Below are positions 79 through 62,005 of a stretch of 64,000 bases of DNA, one piece after another (positions within the stretch are counted from its first letter, which is position 1; each line of letters begins with the position of its first letter). The notes under the pieces are model-generated. The model worked only from the letters and a program-made list of their open reading frames with translations, was not told where the DNA came from and did no database searches. Position numbers and translations under genes: made by a program. Where the stretch lies: positions 1 to 64,000 of the forward strand of contig JANRLT010000027.1 in assembly GCA_033762255.1 (NCBI GenBank), in the 5' to 3' direction. Source of the DNA: Pirellulales bacterium. Lineage in GTDB: Bacteria > Planctomycetota > Planctomycetia > Pirellulales > JALHPA01.

Positions 79-1563
79 TTGTGCTTGGGGATCGGACTCT
101 GGGGGGGGGGACCGGTTTGCTCCGCCGATCAACTGGCCGAGGTGCTCGCCCGGGGAACAATCGTTTGGGGGGGAGACCAAGAAGGGGGTGGACCGTACGT
201 CTTTCCCGATGAACAGGGAAAACAAATCGGGTTTGAGGTGGAGCTAGCGGGGCTGCTGGCCCAGGAAATCGGCCGTCAACAGCAGGCGCCGCGCGAACTG
301 CGGGCGGTCTTTCAGCAGGGGCAATGGGTCAATCTGCCGCTCATGCTAAATAATCAGATCGACCTGGTGCTGAATGGCTATGAATTGACGCCGGATCGTC
401 AGCGGGATTATCTCTGTTCGCGGCCTTACTATATGTATGGACTGCAACTCATGGCCCGTAAGTCCTTGGCGGAGAGCAGTTGGGAAGAGCTCAAGGCCAG
501 CGGCAAAAAGTACACGGCTGGCGTCTTGGTGGGATCGGCGGCGGCCCAGTATTTGCAGAAAAGCCACGCGGACTATATTACCGTCATCGAGTTCGATGGA
601 AACACCGATGCACTTCAAAAAGTCCAGGATGGACTGTTGGATTTGACATTGTTGGATGATTGTGCAGCTCTGCATTATGCCGACAGATTTACCCAGGTCA
701 AGTTTATCAGCCGGCCGGTGGGACAGGGGTACTTTGTGATCCTGGTCAAACAGGGAGAAGATCGATTATTGAAAGCGGTGAATGCAGCCCTGGACGCCCT
801 ATTAAATAATGGAGAGCTAAAGTCGCTCTATGACCGCTGGGACATGTCGGGCAAGGCGCAGATGCTGGTCCTGCGAGATACGACCCACGTCGCGAGCGCC
901 GCCACGCAAAGCTTGTGGGATATCATCCGCTTGAATCTACCGCTCTTGCTAGAAGGAGCGGGCTATACAGTGCTTTTGGCCTGTGCGTCCATGCCCCTGG
1001 CGATCGCTATGGGAGTCTTGGTGGCATTGGGGCGGCTGTACGGTCCCCGCTGGCTGGCGTGGCTCTGTGCCTGGTATGTCGAGATCATTCGCGGCACGCC
1101 GCTGCTGCTGCAGCTCTATGCCATTTTCTTTTTATTGCCCGAACTAGGAATCAATTTGCACTTTCTGGTCGCGGGGATCGCCGGGCTGGCGCTGAACTAC
1201 TCGGCCTACGAGGCGGAAATTTACCGCGCGGGACTGCAGTCCGTTCCCCGTGGCCAAATGGAAGCGGCACTCGCCCTGGGCCTGACCCGTCAACAGGCGA
1301 TCTGGCGAATCATTCTGCCCCAGGCGATGCGGATTGTCATACCGCCGGTCACGAATGACTTTATCGCGCTCTTTAAGGATACCAGCGTCTGCTCGGCGAT
1401 TACGATCATGGAACTGACCAAGCGGTATACCATTCAGGCCAACAGCACGGGAGCATTTATGGAACTTGCGGCGATCACGGCGATTTTGTATCTGCTGATG
1501 AGCTATCCGCTGTCGCTTTTGGCGCGGTGGAGCGAGGCCAGATTGGGAGCAAATAAGAATTAA
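79..1563 (+). CDS. amino-acid ABC transporter, substrate-binding protein fused to permease (5' end uncertain)
   Basis: Imports a polar amino acid or similar small solute. The first half (about residues 20-260) is a periplasmic binding protein of the SBP_bac_3 type. The second half (about 275-490) is a HisM/GlnP-type permease with several membrane helices and the EAA-loop pattern around ALALGLTRQQAIWRIILPQA. A hydrophobic signal segment ending in VCSA precedes the binding domain. The frame stays open to base 1, and position 79 is only a TTG inside the signal segment, so the true start probably lies upstream or in damaged sequence. The ATPase gene follows at 1722, which completes an importer. 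Fused binding-permease proteins are known in this family. The substrate cannot be read from the sequence. Confidence 0.85.
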   Translation: MCLGIGLWGGGPVCSADQLAEVLARGTIVWGGDQEGGGPYVFPDEQGKQIGFEVELAGLLAQEIGRQQQAPRELRAVFQQGQWVNLPLMLNNQIDLVLNGYELTPDRQRDYLCSRPYYMYGLQLMARKSLAESSWEELKASGKKYTAGVLVGSAAAQYLQKSHADYITVIEFDGNTDALQKVQDGLLDLTLLDDCAALHYADRFTQVKFISRPVGQGYFVILVKQGEDRLLKAVNAALDALLNNGELKSLYDRWDMSGKAQMLVLRDTTHVASAATQSLWDIIRLNLPLLLEGAGYTVLLACASMPLAIAMGVLVALGRLYGPRWLAWLCAWYVEIIRGTPLLLQLYAIFFLLPELGINLHFLVAGIAGLALNYSAYEAEIYRAGLQSVPRGQMEAALALGLTRQQAIWRIILPQAMRIVIPPVTNDFIALFKDTSVCSAITIMELTKRYTIQANSTGAFMELAAITAILYLLMSYPLSLLARWSEARLGANKN

Positions 1564-1565
1564 AA

Positions 1566-1621
1566 ATGAAGAATTCGGAAATTAGAAATTCATGTGTAGT
1601 GACTAGCAACGACAGTCACTA
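1566..1621 (+). repeat. AT-rich block plus CACTAA-type tract of the 7-bp repeat family
   Basis: A purine/AT block (AAAATGAAGAATT, then GAAATTAGAAATTCATG) is followed by a CACTAATCACTA tract. It lies between the transporter gene and its ATPase gene. The same two-part design recurs upstream of ybeY, rsgA, lptE and yjbQ in this window. Confidence 0.45.
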
Positions 1622-8738: not shown

Positions 8739-8789
8739 GGGAGGAATGGAGTCTGGAGAAATGGAGTTTGGAGGATTAAATTTTTCCAC
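8739..8789 (-). repeat. 7-bp-period pyrimidine tract before the yjbQ start
   Basis: Read in the gene's direction, this tract is a G-poor run of units like CCTCCAA, ACTCCAT, TTCTCCA and GACTCCA. It ends directly at the ATG and is preceded by an AT block (AAAAATTTAAT). It has the same design as the tracts before lptE, ybeY and rsgA. Confidence 0.55.
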
Positions 8790-10419: not shown

Positions 10420-10518
10420 GGGGGTGGGATTGGGAGAAGTGGAGTTTGGAGTAATGGAGGAGTGGAGAAATACTCTTTCCATTCTTAATTTTTCATTCTT
10501 AATTCTTCATTGACTCGC
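10420..10518 (-). repeat. AT block plus 7-bp-period TCC tract before lptE
   Basis: Read leftward, this is an AT block (GAATTAAGAATGAAAAATT, 14-bp repeats) followed by a G-poor tract of units such as CACTCCT, CCATTAC, TCCAAAC and TCCACTT that runs up to the lptE ATG. It fills the whole spacer between the BamD-like gene and lptE. Confidence 0.6.
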
Positions 10519-12899: not shown

Positions 12900-12950
12900 G
12901 GCGGGAAATACAAATTAAGAATTAAAAATTTACAATTAAAAATTGAGCCG
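12900..12950 (-). repeat. AT-rich repeat block before recO
   Basis: The spacer between the corC-like gene and recO is filled with near-7-bp AT units (AATTAAGAATTAAAAATT, then CAATTAAAAATT). The CAC-type tract seen at the related sites is missing here. Confidence 0.45.
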
Positions 12951-14894: not shown

Positions 14895-14965
14895 GGGGGC
14901 GGTGGATAGTGGATAGTGGTTAGTGAATCTCAAATTAATAATTTTCATTTTTTAATTCTTAATTG
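14895..14965 (-). repeat. AT block plus CAC-type 7-bp repeat before ybeY
   Basis: Read leftward: AATTAAGAATTAAAAAATG, AT-rich sequence, then units TAACCAC, TATCCAC, TATCCAC and CGCCCCC ending at the ybeY ATG. The 7-bp period is exact over four units. It fills the space between the pgpH stop and ybeY. Confidence 0.65.
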
Positions 14966-18395: not shown

Positions 18396-18727
18396 TTTAG
18401 AGTATAGCAGATTCGTTGGCGGGGAAGTTAAATTGGCGAAAAATATTTCTGTAAAATCATAGCAGATAATGGTTTAAGTTGATTTTACGGGATGAATTCC
18501 AAGTCCCGCGCGGCAGGAGGGATTACGAGAGAGGAGACGCGAATGCCGGGATGAGGAAGGCGGGGCGAGGGAGCGGGAGACGAGAAGCAGTATTGTTCGA
18601 AAATGCTTACTACAAAGATAACGCACCTCCGGAGCAATACCGCAGGGCAAATCAGCCGTGGCACACTCGCAGTCTCGATGTAGCATCTCTCTACTGCCTT
18701 CTGCATTCAAACTTCTGCATTTCCCCA
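18396..18727. other. intergenic region with 7-bp repeat tract
   Basis: About 330 bp between the ptsI 3' end and phoH. Positions 18690-18727 carry a period-7 tract (CTGCCTT, CTGCATT, CAAACTT, CTGCATT) that stops at the ptsI stop codon. A G/A-rich run (about 18525-18590) made of GGGAGACGAGAAG-like words looks related to the array inside the methyltransferase gene. No gene was found. Confidence 0.5.
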
Positions 18728-40252: not shown

Positions 40253-41197
40253 ATGTTTTTACGCTTTAAATTCAAAAGCATCCCCTGGTTGTCCTGCGCG
40301 CTGGTGGTCGCTAGCATACTGGGGGGCGGGTGCGGAGAATCCTCCTCTCCCCCGGCGCCGACAGTCTCCCTGGCGGACAAACTCGCCCGCGCGCTGAAAA
40401 TCTCAGACCCAAAAGCACGGGCTGACAACCTCTTGCGCCTGGTTAATGAACTATTGGCGGCGGCCGACCAGCCCGCCGCCGACCGGGCATTGACCGCCAT
40501 TAAGGAAATCATCCCCAAAGTGGATGATCCCGTCGAGCAGGCCCGACTTTGGGCGGACCTGGCCGAACGACAAGCCCGCGCCAGCCAAAAAGGAGCAGCG
40601 CGGGAATCGCTGCTGTTGGCCAAAAGTGGACAAGAAAAGCTTGCCGCAAACCCTTTTGGCCGGGTCCGGGTGCTGACCCGCATGGCGTACGCCCACGCGG
40701 CGTTGGGGGCGCAAAACACCGTGGCGGACACATTAGCCACCGCCGAGGGATTGGCCAAGGGACTGACAGATCCCGAGGAACTGACGCGGGCCTGGTTGGA
40801 ACTGGCCCGCGCGCGGCATTTTTTAGATCAACATGGCCCGCGGGACGAGGCCTACACGGCGGCGCGGACAGCGGCCATGTCCGCCCCGGAGGCGCGACTC
40901 AAATGCGAATTGCTATTGGACATTGCCGACGCTCAACTCAAAGTCAAGCAAATCGAGCCAGCCCAACAATTACTAGGGGAGGCTCGGCGACTGGCGGGGG
41001 AGATTGTCGAACCGTTATCGCGGGGCTATGTGTTGCTGAAACTAGCGGAAAAATACAGTTTGGCGGGTCTGGCGGATGACAGTGTGCAACTTTTTGCCCA
41101 GGTCGAGGGATTGATCAAACAGATTCCCGAACGGGATTTGCAAAAAGAACTGAGTGACAAGCTAGCGGAAACCAAGAAAAAATACGGGGGAAAATAG
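40253..41197 (+). CDS. helical-repeat (TPR-like) lipoprotein
   Basis: A 314-residue predicted lipoprotein: signal ending SILGGGC with the lipid Cys near residue 27, then a Ser/Pro linker. A long run of antiparallel helices follows with the pattern LADLAERQARASQKGAARESLLLAK, VRVLTRMAYAHAALG, TRAWLELARARHFLDQHGP and LLLDIADAQLKVKQIEPAQQLLGEA. This spacing is TPR-like but I cannot name a family. It probably sits on the envelope as a protein-binding scaffold. The ATG at 40253 gives a clean lipoprotein signal. It may be co-transcribed with dapL. Confidence 0.65.
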   Translation: MFLRFKFKSIPWLSCALVVASILGGGCGESSSPPAPTVSLADKLARALKISDPKARADNLLRLVNELLAAADQPAADRALTAIKEIIPKVDDPVEQARLWADLAERQARASQKGAARESLLLAKSGQEKLAANPFGRVRVLTRMAYAHAALGAQNTVADTLATAEGLAKGLTDPEELTRAWLELARARHFLDQHGPRDEAYTAARTAAMSAPEARLKCELLLDIADAQLKVKQIEPAQQLLGEARRLAGEIVEPLSRGYVLLKLAEKYSLAGLADDSVQLFAQVEGLIKQIPERDLQKELSDKLAETKKKYGGK

Positions 41198-41204
41198 GAG
41201 GGGG

Positions 41205-41345
41205 GAAGTGTGAAGGATGAATGCAGAAGGCAGAATAATGAATGCAGAATTAATACCAGAAGGGTATAGCTGCGCTGCACGCTGTCACTATACGGCTAAT
41301 ATTCCTCTAAACTCCATTCCTCCAGCCTCCCTAACCCTCAATCCA
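41205..41345 (+). repeat. long 7-bp-period repeat tract at the mnmA 3' end
   Basis: Purine units (GGATGAA, TGCAGAA, GGCAGAA, TAATGAA, TGCAGAA; 41217-41252) are followed by a GCGCTGCACGC spacer and pyrimidine units (CTCCATT, CCTCCAG, CCTCCCT, AACCCTC, AATCCAG; about 41311-41347). It fills the gap between two convergent genes and runs into the last codons of mnmA. Confidence 0.6.
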
Positions 41346-50691: not shown

Positions 50692-51828
50692 CTAATCCCA
50701 ATCCGCAAACGGTTCGTTATTTTCCACCAGCGCGCAGTAGCTTTCGTACCGCCGCGCGTCTAAAAAGCCATCCGCCACGCCATCCTTTACCGCGCAGTGC
50801 GCCTCGTGGGTGTGCGTGCAATTGGGATATTTGCACAAATTGGCATAGGGTCGCAAATCGCGAAAATGGCCAGCGACTTCCTCGGGAATAATATCCCAAA
50901 GCTGAAATTGCCGGATTCCCGGCGTATCGACCACATAACCGCCGCTATCGAGCTTGAGCAATTTGGCGGTAGTGGTGGTATGCCGTCCTTTTTGATTATC
51001 GGCGCTCACATGACTAGTGCGCAGATTCCAGTCCGGCTGCACCGCGTTGAGGAGTGAGGATTTGCCCACGCCGCTTTGACCGACAATCACGGTCGAATAC
51101 CCCCCCAGCCATTGCCGCAGCCGCGCGATTCCCATATTTTGCCGGGCGGATAGCAGCAGCACCCGATAACCCATGCGGGCGTACACGCCGACCAGCGGCT
51201 GCAGGTCGGCGGGATCGGCCAAATCGACTTTGTTAATGCCGATGATGGGGCGCAAACCGGCTTGTTCGGCGGAGACTAAAAAGCGATCAATGAGGTTGGG
51301 CTTGAGGTACGGCTCGGCGGCGCTGCCAATGACCAGCAGTTGATCGACGTTGGTGACCATGATATGCCGCCGCCCCTTGCTCATGCGGCTAAGGACGCCA
51401 TGCCGCCGTTCAACGCGCTCGATGATCCCTTCTTGTTCGGCGGCAGGGCGAAAGTACACATAATCCCCCGCCGCCACCACATGCCGCTGGTCGGTGGCCA
51501 GTGTTTTTAACAGTCGCCGGGTCGCGCACTGATAGTGCGCTCCGGTTTCGTCCTCGACCAGGCTGGTTAAGCCAAACACCGACAGTACCCGCCCCCGGCG
51601 GCAGACCGACAGGTCGATTCCGGGTTGCGCGGTCAGTCCCGCGTCATCGGCCGCCACATCGCCGATGATCGTGCGCTTGCGGGTCAGTTCCCCCTTGCCA
51701 CTGATCCGTTCATCGCGGGTGTGGTCCTCATTATGGCGATCCGCCTGAAAATCGCGCGTCAGGTCGTTTTCCCGCTGGCGAGAGCCGCGGTTTTTCCGAA
51801 ATTCAGCGCGAAATTTTTTGCGTGCCAT
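50692..51828 (-). CDS. rsgA: ribosome small-subunit-dependent GTPase A
   Basis: A GTPase that checks late 30S assembly. The order is circularly permuted, as expected: OB-fold N-domain (VLSVFGLTSLVEDETGAHYQ), then G4 IGINKVDLADP, then G1 VGQSGVGKSSLLNAV, G3 DTPGIRQFQL, and a C-terminal zinc knuckle CKYPNCTHTHEAHCAV. A long basic N-terminal extension (about 70 residues, KKFRAEFRKNRGSRQREND) comes first. The ATG at 51828 is chosen; the 20 codons open upstream encode a repeat tract. 378 residues. rsmA (30S methylation) is 7 kb away. Confidence 0.94.
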   Translation of the reverse strand: MARKKFRAEFRKNRGSRQRENDLTRDFQADRHNEDHTRDERISGKGELTRKRTIIGDVAADDAGLTAQPGIDLSVCRRGRVLSVFGLTSLVEDETGAHYQCATRRLLKTLATDQRHVVAAGDYVYFRPAAEQEGIIERVERRHGVLSRMSKGRRHIMVTNVDQLLVIGSAAEPYLKPNLIDRFLVSAEQAGLRPIIGINKVDLADPADLQPLVGVYARMGYRVLLLSARQNMGIARLRQWLGGYSTVIVGQSGVGKSSLLNAVQPDWNLRTSHVSADNQKGRHTTTTAKLLKLDSGGYVVDTPGIRQFQLWDIIPEEVAGHFRDLRPYANLCKYPNCTHTHEAHCAVKDGVADGFLDARRYESYCALVENNEPFADWD

Positions 51829-51924
51829 GAGGGAGAGGGGGGTGGGCAGTGGAGGGTGGGAAGTGGTTAGTGAGGAGTGGATAAGCACAATTTTTAATTT
51901 TTAATTATTCATTCTTAATTGTTA
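51829..51924 (-). repeat. AT block plus CAC-type 7-bp repeat before rsgA
   Basis: Read leftward: AT units (AATTAAAAATTAAAAATTG) followed by six 7-bp units each ending CAC (TATCCAC, TCCTCAC, TAACCAC, TTCCCAC, CCTCCAC, TGCCCAC), then a C/T run ending at the rsgA ATG. This is the clearest example of the family. It fills the whole aroE-rsgA spacer. Confidence 0.75.
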
Positions 51925-52770
51925 TCACAGGCTAAGATACTCTTCCAGCGCCTCGCGCATCGTCGCGGCATTCGGCGTAACGCCCGTCCAGATTTGAAAG
52001 CCGATTACCGCCTGGTTGACCAGCATGCCCAGGCCATCCAGCGTGGTCGCTCCGGCGGCCTTGGCTTCTTGTAAAAATCGGGTCTCCGGGGGGCTAAAAA
52101 CCACATCCGCCACGACCAGATTCGGCCGCAAGGTCTCGCGCTTGACCGGCACGCGGGTCTCTTCGGCAAACAGGCCAATACTGGTCCCATTGATCAAAAT
52201 TTCGGTCTCGGGGGGAATTTCGTATTCTTTTTCCCAACCCACCGCTTCCGCCGCCACATGCACTTTTTCCCGCAAGACCGCCGCCAGTTCTTCGCCGCGC
52301 GACGGCGTGCGGTTCACAATGGTGATCTTACCCGCCTGGGCGAGTGCCAGCTCGACCGCGATCGCCCGAGCGGCGCCCCCCGCCCCCAGGATCGTGACCT
52401 GGGTCCCGGCGGGATCCCGCACCTCCCGCAGCGATTGCAAAAATCCCTTGCCGTCGGTGTTTTCGCCCAGTAGCCGCCCCTGGTGGTGGTGGATACAGTT
52501 GACCGCCTGCATCAGTTGGGCGGCCTGGCTTAGTTCATCCAAATGCTCAATCACGGCCACTTTGTGGGGCATGGTGATATTGCCCCCGCGAAAGTTCATC
52601 GCCCGCGCGCCGCGGATGGCATCGGCCAGTTTTTCGGCGGGGACCTCCAGCGTCAAATAGCGCCAATCAAGATTGGCCTCGGCCAAGGCCCGCTCCATCA
52701 TGAATTGGGTGGGGTTACCGGCGACGGGCTGGCCGAACACAAACAGAATTTCTTGCAAAGAGTTGGACAC
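51925..52770 (-). CDS. aroE: shikimate dehydrogenase family protein
   Basis: Reduces 3-dehydroshikimate to shikimate with NADPH. N-terminal catalytic domain: FGQPVAGNPTQFMMERA replaces the usual Ser-x-Ser pattern (family SLSPxMHN); the catalytic Lys is in GGNITMPHKVAVIEHLDE and the Asp in GENTDGKGFL. The NADP-binding domain has ILGAGGAARAIAVELAL and IVNRTPSR. C-terminal block DGLGMLVNQAVIGFQIWTG. The variant substrate loop may mean a divergent planctomycete type or altered specificity. The start is uncertain: a GTG at 52770 gives SNSLQEILFVFGQ, while the frame is open to 52833. It precedes rsgA on the same strand. Confidence 0.85.
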   Translation of the reverse strand: MSNSLQEILFVFGQPVAGNPTQFMMERALAEANLDWRYLTLEVPAEKLADAIRGARAMNFRGGNITMPHKVAVIEHLDELSQAAQLMQAVNCIHHHQGRLLGENTDGKGFLQSLREVRDPAGTQVTILGAGGAARAIAVELALAQAGKITIVNRTPSRGEELAAVLREKVHVAAEAVGWEKEYEIPPETEILINGTSIGLFAEETRVPVKRETLRPNLVVADVVFSPPETRFLQEAKAAGATTLDGLGMLVNQAVIGFQIWTGVTPNAATMREALEEYLSL

Positions 52771-60925: not shown

Positions 60926-62005
60926 TTAATTGACATAAACGTTTCGCTCGGGATCATAGTAATCCCGCTCTAACGACACCGGTTTGCCGCGGGCCTGTAT
61001 TTCTCCCGGTAAACGCTCGAGCACGGCCAACAGACTGGCGCCCCGGGCATAACCCCGCCGCCTTCCGCGCAAGGCCGACAACAGCACAGCGGATTCACCC
61101 GCAAAAATATGTTCCAATGCCTGATTGACCGGCCCAAACGGCACGGCAAAGTCGGTCCCCGCCGCGCCCGCCGACCGACCACGCCAACGATTGACCTGCC
61201 GAATGGTCCGAATGACGGGATACAGGCGCGTGTTAAAGTGGGTCAGCAGCCGCGTTTTGACCGGCAGGTCCGCCCATAGCTGTTCTAATCGGGGGGTGGT
61301 GTAGCGTCTAAAATGGCCAAAGCTTTCATCGTGACGACTCCACAGCGCCAAATCCGCGGGGACGGTGATCAGTACGAACCCCCCCGGCTGCAATTCCGCC
61401 AGAATGCGTGAAAGCAGCAAAAAGTCGTCCCGGACATGCTCTAGCACATCATTAAGCATGACCAGATCTGCCCTTCGCGCGGTCTCGCCTAGGTCATCGG
61501 GGGCAAACCCTCGCACAAATTCCACGCCCGGAAATCTGGCCTGGGCGAGTGCGATAGCCTCGGCGCTCGAATCGATCCCCACGCAATGATACCGGTTGGC
61601 CAGCGCGGCCAGATTGGCCCCCGTGCCGCAACCGACATCCACGATGAGTGGCTTTGAAAGTTTGCAGTTTGAAATTTGCAGGCCAGAAGATCTGAGATGG
61701 TTGCAGGTCGCGTCATCCACATGCCTGCCCCCTAGCCCCTGTCCTCTTACCCCTGCCTTTCCTCCCGTCTCCCGCCTCCCGTCTCCCGCCTCTCCTCTGT
61801 TCCCTGCCTTTCCTCCCGCCTCCCGCCTCCCATCTCCCGCCTCTCCCCTGTTCCCTGCCTTTCCTCCCGTCTCCCAGCTCCCGTCTCCCGCCTCTCCCTG
61901 TCCCAGCAGTTCATCAACCAACCGACCCACAATTCGCCGCCGGGCGGTAAACCACCAATGGGATTGTTCGATATTGGCATGCAACTGGAACTGGGCGGAA
62001 TTCAT
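60926..62005 (-). CDS. class I SAM-dependent methyltransferase carrying a repeat-array insertion
   Basis: A 359-residue protein. Residues 1-35 (HANIEQSHWWFTARRRIVG) are a normal start for this methyltransferase group. Residues 36-108 are an insertion: three 17-residue units (GEAGDGRREAGGKAGNR type) and then a unique stretch, encoded by period-7 repeats. The SAM domain resumes with PLIVDVGCGTGANLAALA, the acidic GIDSSAEAI, and LVMLNDVLEHVRDD, followed by LQPGGFVLITVPA and FGHFRRYT. The C-terminal part has a hydrophobic region with NRWRGRS and DYYDPERNVYVN. It probably methylates a sugar or lipid intermediate; the substrate is unknown. Whether the insertion tolerates folding cannot be told from sequence. 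Confidence 0.85.
   Translation of the reverse strand: MNSAQFQLHANIEQSHWWFTARRRIVGRLVDELLGQGEAGDGSWETGGKAGNRGEAGDGRREAGGKAGNRGEAGDGRRETGGKAGVRGQGLGGRHVDDATCNHLRSSGLQISNCKLSKPLIVDVGCGTGANLAALANRYHCVGIDSSAEAIALAQARFPGVEFVRGFAPDDLGETARRADLVMLNDVLEHVRDDFLLLSRILAELQPGGFVLITVPADLALWSRHDESFGHFRRYTTPRLEQLWADLPVKTRLLTHFNTRLYPVIRTIRQVNRWRGRSAGAAGTDFAVPFGPVNQALEHIFAGESAVLLSALRGRRRGYARGASLLAVLERLPGEIQARGKPVSLERDYYDPERNVYVN
61642..61910 (-). repeat. period-7 repeat array inside the methyltransferase gene
   Basis: Units such as CTCCCGT, CTCCCGC and CTCCCGC on the plus strand run through about 61745-61905, with a 51-bp higher-order repeat present three times (17 residues each). The adjoining stretch 61645-61675 is a second period-7 tract (CAAATTT, CAAACTG, CAAACTT on the minus strand). 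Both preserve the reading frame. Confidence 0.8.

Follow-up and report, generated by a model that had tools for sequence, protein, structure and literature searches.

The 96-bp gap between a shikimate dehydrogenase-like (aroE) gene and rsgA, both on the minus strand, is entirely occupied by a composite tract of 7-bp units that runs from the aroE-like stop (51925) to the rsgA ATG (51828). The window analysed here, a stretch of 64,000 nucleotides, is taken from contig JANRLT010000027.1 of a Pirellulales bacterium. On the sense strand, the order is stop-TAAC-AATTAAG and further AT heptads, followed by pyrimidine-form heptads (...CCACTCC TCACTAA CCACTTC...-tc-ATG). The preliminary description of this DNA had reported an AT block and then G-poor 7-bp units before rsgA, and this was borne out over the full length of the gap. 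In about 30 relatives, the homologues of rsgA begin to align at residues 1-3, and the ATG is thus correct. Pfam matches support the assignments of rsgA, the aroE-like gene, ybeY, lptE, recO, the mnmA-type gene and UPF0047/yjbQ. The only Rfam match in the window was a tRNA.

Table 1. Heptad tracts, companion repeats and bordering genes. Positions are those of the window unless a contig is named.
Feature	Position	Strand	Remarks
Composite heptad tract, whole aroE-like/rsgA gap	51829..51924	(-)	96 bp; sense strand is minus
AT-heptad block, purine form	51889..51924	(-)	AATTAAG AATGAAT AATTAAA AATTAAA AATT; touches upstream stop
Pyrimidine-form heptads CCACTCC/TCACTAA/CCACTTC	51831..51888	(-)	end 2 nt before rsgA ATG
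rsgA (PF03193)	50692..51828	(-)	start backed by homologue alignments
Shikimate dehydrogenase-like (aroE) gene	51925..52701	(-)	stop borders tract
Composite tract, HD-domain gene stop (14973) to ybeY ATG (14894)	14902..14964	(-)	AATTAAG block, then CACTAAC CACTATC CACTATC CAC
Pyrimidine-form AT heptads before recO ATG (12899)	12905..12944	(-)	end 5 nt before ATG
Purine-form AT heptads past stop (10519) of gene upstream of lptE	10476..10511	(-)	7 nt past stop
Period-15 (7+8) CTCCA-type pyrimidine tract before lptE ATG (10419)	10424..10459	(-)	
Period-15 CTCCAAA/CTCCATTT tract adjoining ATG (8738) of UPF0047/yjbQ	8740..8773	(-)	
Purine-form AT heptads overlapping stop (1563) of permease/solute-binding gene	1547..1593	(+)	upstream of ABC ATPase, not at ATPase start
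Purine-form heptads GAATGCA/GAAGGCA over stop (41197) of plus-strand gene	41176..41250	(+)	convergent gap facing mnmA
Short AATGCAGAAGTTTGAATGCAGAAG repeat directly past stop (18728)	18698..18721	(-)	gene matches the 'ptsI' of the preliminary description by position
GTAG-headed REP-like hairpins GTAGGTCCCGTCCGCCGGACGGGAC and GTAGGAGGCGACTC...	e.g. C17:10830, C21:188682, C41:108586		own genome; beside gene borders

The tract reported before ybeY has the same composite architecture as that at rsgA, and the scan yielded a further good example before recO, which was absent from the earlier list. Other assignments had to be revised. At lptE, the heptad AT block is present but belongs to the stop of the upstream gene and lies 56 nt from the ATG; what occupies the start side is the 15-bp CTCCA type. 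The supposed 7-bp tract before yjbQ is likewise a 15-bp repeat (7+8), and the one placed at the start of the ABC ATPase overlaps the stop of the preceding gene. At the mnmA end of the convergent gap, the units are of the CTCCA type. A 51-bp repeat in three copies, made of CCTCCCG heptads, was observed at 61751-61901 within the 5' part of ORF 60926-62005. The methyltransferase domain of this ORF begins only at residue 120, and its start may therefore be further downstream; in that case the repeat would place a purine tract on the sense strand ahead of a start, contrary to the polarity rule described below.

Period 7 was examined in 1.65 Mb (~30% of the genome), taken as stretches and partly picked for contigs with an AATTAAG match, a choice that could raise the apparent tract density and should leave position and polarity untouched. 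Gene borders were taken from our own simple gene-calling script. The scan returned 101 arrays at lag 7, compared to 0-12 at each of the remaining lags between 4 and 13, and local shuffles gave no lag-7 arrays. Lags 14 and 21 partake in the lag-7 signal, and lag 15 has 40 arrays of its own. Global autocorrelation averages of the window displayed no lag-7 excess, showing that the signal is local and confined to arrays. Thus, head-to-tail 7-bp units occur far above chance, as in the STRR-like heptameric intergenic repeats. The arrays contain many unrelated heptads, including AATTAAR, AATTACR, GATTTGA, GAATGMA, GTGGATA, GGGAGAC, GACGCGG, AGGGAACA, TGGTTTT and relatives of these. Some families (GGGAGAC, AGGGAACA) have at least four G-runs.

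The tracts are intergenic, with 145 of 158 (~92%) being less than 30% genic, and were found in co-directional (102), convergent (38) and rarely divergent (5) contexts. Among gaps of 60-600 bp, a tract was present in 66 of 524 co-directional, 23 of 123 convergent and 3 of 134 divergent gaps, which corresponds to a depletion of divergent gaps with an odds ratio of 0.16 relative to co-directional (p=1e-4) and 0.10 relative to convergent gaps (p=1e-5). When the tracts were placed at random within the same gaps, 12.1+-2.5 were expected to begin within 10 nt of a stop and 15.1+-2.9 to have their end at most 14 nt from a start; the observed numbers were 33 and 30, respectively. The tracts on the start side stop 2-14 nt short of the start codon. 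The preliminary description had named the absence of any genome-wide bias to start or stop codons or to strand as the outcome that would speak against it, and the scan revealed such a bias. Its suggestion of preferential insertion at gene borders agrees with the abutment beyond random placement, although this is not sufficient alone.

To describe orientation, we define the outward strand as the strand that runs 5' to 3' out of the gene, and polarity as the excess of GR versus YC on that strand. Of the 94 oriented tracts within 40 nt of a border, 85 had more GR than YC on the outward strand, with outward to inward ratios of 33:1 at starts and 52:8 at stops. Thus, contrary to the preliminary description, the orientation is not always that of the gene, and the polarity is strong without being absolute. 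Stops in convergent gaps were also polar (20:3), and beyond 40 nt there was no significant bias (8:3 and 15:11). Tract-free gaps were outward in only 62% (starts) and 55% (stops) of the cases, and the tracts differ from these (p=3e-6 and 2e-7). We compared the purine, G-C, A-T and GR-YC descriptors on the same tracts and kept GR-YC as the best fit, so that its counts are slightly optimistic; within 40 nt, purine content gave 82 of 95 and G minus C 78 of 94. For co-directional gaps, purine content alone, fixed beforehand, gave 29:2 (starts) and 28:3 (stops).

The general base composition upstream of starts is mildly pyrimidine-rich, and sequence after stops in general showed no R bias, for which reason a generic composition preference fails to account for the polarity at stops. 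A supply of stop codons was considered as its source and is unsupported (in-tract stops outward 25, inward 16, p=0.21). Unit phase relative to the border showed no clear preference modulo 7. Tracts composed of AT only (GC<25%) follow the polarity by 37:5, based on purine content. As in the repeats of Rehm et al. (2015), the G-rich strand within about 50 bp of a border is the antisense strand if the border is a start and the sense strand if it is a stop, and divergent gaps are avoided, while quadruplex-capable G-runs are found in the units of only some families. The polarity, a little-known rule so far described only in G-quadruplex-forming repeats, thus extends to AT-rich repeats that are unable to form quadruplexes.

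We compared the leaders of 30 ATG genes in which a tract runs up to the start with those of 865 other genes. Shine-Dalgarno motifs were present in 7% of the tract leaders and 23% of the others (p=0.028), and the G fraction was 0.06 as compared to 0.20. The predicted folding energy of the region -35..+30 was -4.6 kcal/mol with a tract and -10.7 kcal/mol in a random 300 of the others (p=1e-10). Flipping the tracts in silico changed the folding to -11.5 kcal/mol and introduced an ATG or GTG in 80% of the leaders, compared to 0% as found. Since flipped tracts bring hairpins and ATG/GTG into the leaders, the start-side orientation is the one compatible with translation. On these predictions, the cost of flipping would be a sufficient selective reason for the rule at starts, and would not imply that the tract benefits translation. 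The low G content, weak folding and few Shine-Dalgarno motifs agree with the earlier proposal of unstructured, G-free leaders that help ribosome access. However, the orthologous rsgA, ybeY and recO genes use other leaders, and the proposal leaves the stop side unaccounted for: polarity is equally strong after stop codons, including convergent pairs, which makes the leader idea insufficient.

The comparison of orthologous leaders that the preliminary description had called for showed that rsgA, ybeY and recO have other leaders in the relatives, mostly without tracts. No tract was present before ybeY or recO in the relatives inspected, and before rsgA one was found only in genome G019, with a decayed form in its congener G035. 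In G019, a purine tract of AGCNNTT units past the upstream stop is paired with a pyrimidine counterpart before rsgA; in this pair of unrelated heptads, the architecture seen in the study genome has been gained independently. A TATAAT-like sequence was observed upstream of rsgA in G035, in the spacer of the AGCNNTT pair (L102 and L109 are the G019 and G035 loci).

Within the order, the CCACTAY array pattern was found in 12 of 197 genomes, ranging from zero to more than 300 matches per genome. Among the matches listed were Planctomycetota, Chloroflexota, cyanobacteria, Bacteroidota, Gammaproteobacteria, spirochaetes, Patescibacteria and others. In 80 listed loci, for which the ORF calls were crude, polarity was 10:0 at starts and 16:2 at stops in planctomycetes, and 12:4 and 28:6 in other phyla. 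The cyanobacteria within this set gave 4:1 and 7:2, which is weak and too few to judge.

Turnover was visible between two genomes, G094 and G198, that are ~94-97% identical over aligned pieces and are both polar (starts 12:2 and stops 11:6 in G094; starts 10:2 and stops 22:2 in G198). The differences include an indel of one unit (7 bp) in an orthologous gap, wholly replaced gap contents with both flanks intact, and, in one case, an inverted 35-bp spacer that separates a purine tract from the pyrimidine tract paired with it (L231 19182-19321 versus L282). The inversion in near-identical genomes shows that heptad inverted pairs can flip their spacer. In the study genome, AT tracts nearly always begin, at their gene side, in one phase of the unit, AATT, and an identical 31-mer, AATTAAGAATTAAAAATTAAGAATTAAGAAT, recurs in several of them. 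Unit order is only weakly non-random (permutation p=0.057), and a test for the direction of growth, based on a gradient of homogeneity along the tracts, found nothing. Of the hallmarks of mobile dispersed repeats, identical 31-mers at several sites and tract-free orthologous gaps are present, whereas no clean heptad insertion with an empty site or target duplication was seen in the G094/G198 gaps. Copying and slippage probably both act on the tracts.

Other repeats accompany the heptads. The GTAG-headed REP-like hairpins occur in the same gaps and were outward without exception within 40 nt of a border (26:0), and the genome has ten Y1_Tnp (HUH) hits. The period-15 family (7+8: GGAGTTT GGAGGAAT), to which the repeat at yjbQ belongs, was outward in 7 cases and inward in 1 within the same distance. 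MITE-like double-hairpin elements of ~115-160 bp, some with dozens of copies, were observed as well (L231:15315-15479, L230:16252-16411, L288:15150-15253, L282:2448-2576) and have clean empty sites in the sister genome of the G094/G198 pair. The polymorphic inserts of 115-160 bp in these two genomes were considered as heptads and rejected, being such separate elements.

The heptad tracts are real, strongly non-random and partly explained, namely at starts. With somewhat better than even confidence, we favour a fast-turnover mix of intergenic heptads under one border polarity rule, rather than dedicated regulators, since most orthologous gene pairs do without tracts. Heptameric repeats would accumulate and turn over fast in co-directional and convergent gaps, and the rule they share is independent of the heptad, with the outward strand GR- or purine-rich and YC-poor within about 40 nt of the border. 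At starts, polarity would be kept by purifying selection on translation initiation: a tract turned the wrong way would produce folding across the start region and introduce ATG/GTG as well as Shine-Dalgarno-like motifs, and a correctly oriented one may simply act as an unstructured leader. More tentatively, tracts at stops may be tolerated as lying outside coding and promoter sequence, with their polarity stemming from some further filter or from an insertion step that is itself polar. The polarity at stops is nearly as strong as at starts and is without a good selective explanation.

Selection for the tracts as G-poor, unstructured leaders that raise the translation of genes without Shine-Dalgarno sites would account for the weak folding, the low G, the few Shine-Dalgarno motifs and the tract ends 2-14 nt before the start. 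Against this, orthologues in relatives do without such a leader, tracts are equally common and polar past stops, and different heptads or contents swap at the same border between near-identical genomes, so that we consider such selection quite improbable. Nor do we expect, except as a very unlikely case, that the tracts guard gene borders against transcription. Polymerase entering a gene would then transcribe a YC-rich, G-poor Rho-loading tract, and untranslated or antisense transcripts would be stopped at the border. The strength of GR minus YC as the best single descriptor, the symmetry of the rule for entry at the start and at the 3' end and the occurrence of rho in the genome are consistent with this, whereas polarity is gone beyond 40 nt, a distance at which Rho loading should still be of consequence, and AT heptads have only one C per unit. 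To our knowledge, cyanobacteria are without Rho. The rule is nevertheless present in cyanobacteria (Rehm et al., 2015; weakly in our small sample, 7:2 and 4:1), and Trichormus plasmid A, taken as a Rho-free test, displayed no clear rule among its too few tracts. G-quadruplex or i-motif elements, as Rehm et al. proposed for GGGNATC, would fit the G-run families and a position rule identical to theirs; the polarity of AT-only tracts, which cannot form quadruplexes, refutes them as a general cause and leaves this reading highly improbable, although quadruplexes could still modulate the G-rich families. An artefact of start calling or composition is hardly credible: the gene calls do come from a simple script and composition before starts is mildly pyrimidine-rich, but the rsgA start is backed by homologues, stops are unambiguous and yet polar, and the background-corrected tests are significant.

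Under polar insertion, a machinery or an end-repair process would copy the repeats, and the REP-like hairpins with them, into gene borders, in each case attaching the purine-rich 5' end to the gene-leaving strand, with selection secondary. Unrelated heptads, AT-only heptads and GTAG hairpins share the outward polarity, the hairpins in particular hinting that insertion itself is polar for both and speaking less for selection, and polarity persists past stops in convergent gaps. The AATT phase on the gene side, the shared 31-mer and the ten Y1_Tnp hits point the same way. The clean empty sites, however, are those of MITE-like elements and not of heptads, unit order is only weakly non-random, the homogeneity gradient is absent and the heptads have no linked enzyme; on balance we regard polar insertion as unlikely, if a serious candidate. 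That purine and pyrimidine pairs are in general one element, inserted as a whole, was rejected, since different heptads are often found on the two sides and polarity ends beyond 40 nt. A broader conjecture, which we think rather doubtful, is that a common polar process acts on heptads and REP-like hairpins across phyla, adding the 5' end of the purine-rich strand to the gene-leaving strand, with selection merely trimming the result. By analogy, and with the same doubt, it would decorate both sides of a gap outward, somewhat as if two ends had been capped with telomere repeats before being joined.

Short tandemly repeated repetitive (STRR) sequences are heptamers of heterocystous cyanobacteria, and the preliminary description was right to name cyanobacterial heptads as a known comparison. 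We know of no mention of border polarity or gap-type bias in the original STRR description. The present tracts resemble STRR in being heptameric, intergenic and of several families per genome. Heptanucleotides of Calothrix PCC 7601 are cited by Rehm et al. (PMC4692102). TAACTGA direct repeats lie just upstream of starts in Beggiatoaceae, cyanobacteria and Bacteroidetes (MacGregor, 2015; PMC4679880); they also end a few nt before starts, go with few ribosome-binding sites, are spread sporadically across phyla and vary by 7-nt indels. Unlike the tracts described here, they consist of a single motif in 2-6 units on the sense strand, with opposite polarity by GR/YC, and no TAACTGA-type units were found among the listed tract units of the genome. 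GTAG-tagged REP elements are located downstream of genes, among unidirectional or convergent ORFs, and their termini often supply the stop codon (Di Nocera et al., 2013; PMC3733652). The gap preference is the same here, and GTAG hairpins share the gaps and the outward polarity of the heptads. However, these elements are palindromic hairpins mobilised by RAYT transposases, whereas a heptad tract has no hairpin body and consists of units in tandem.

According to Rehm et al. (PMC4692102), the over-representation of heptameric repeats in genomes of bacteria has been known at least since 2007, so far without an accepted explanation. The motif-independent polarity, with AT-only tracts included, removes the quadruplex as a general explanation and narrows the question to selection on gene borders versus a polar insertion process. 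The effect at starts also illustrates how conserved genes such as rsgA, ybeY and recO can acquire, by repeat gain, new leaders without Shine-Dalgarno sites. As far as our literature searches reached, it is new that the rule holds for unrelated heptads, AT-only ones among them, and so are the composite tracts that fill gaps, the quantified leader effect, the spacer inversion and the occurrence in planctomycetes; in agreement with the preliminary description, no account from planctomycetes was found in the open-licence PMC literature.

A closer precedent than the one named in that description is the study by Rehm et al. (2015; PMC4692102) of GGGNATC / GGGGA(C/T)T heptads in Xanthomonas and Nostoc, which have the same polarity and avoid divergent gaps. 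Those repeats, too, are intergenic heptads between aligned genes; their G-rich strand is the antisense one where they precede a start and the sense one where they follow a stop, for the most part at distances of up to 50 bp, and they form inverted pairs and vary in unit number. They represent one G-rich, quadruplex-forming motif, whereas at least eight unrelated heptads, some AT-only, occur here, composite purine-then-pyrimidine tracts fill whole gaps and the evidence speaks against a quadruplex cause. Furthermore, the repeats of Rehm et al. are conserved between species, with 83% in the same context, while turnover here looks fast. We judge the planctomycete tracts to be fast-turning-over, tolerated border repeats, a variant of the known heptameric repeats rather than a dedicated regulator.
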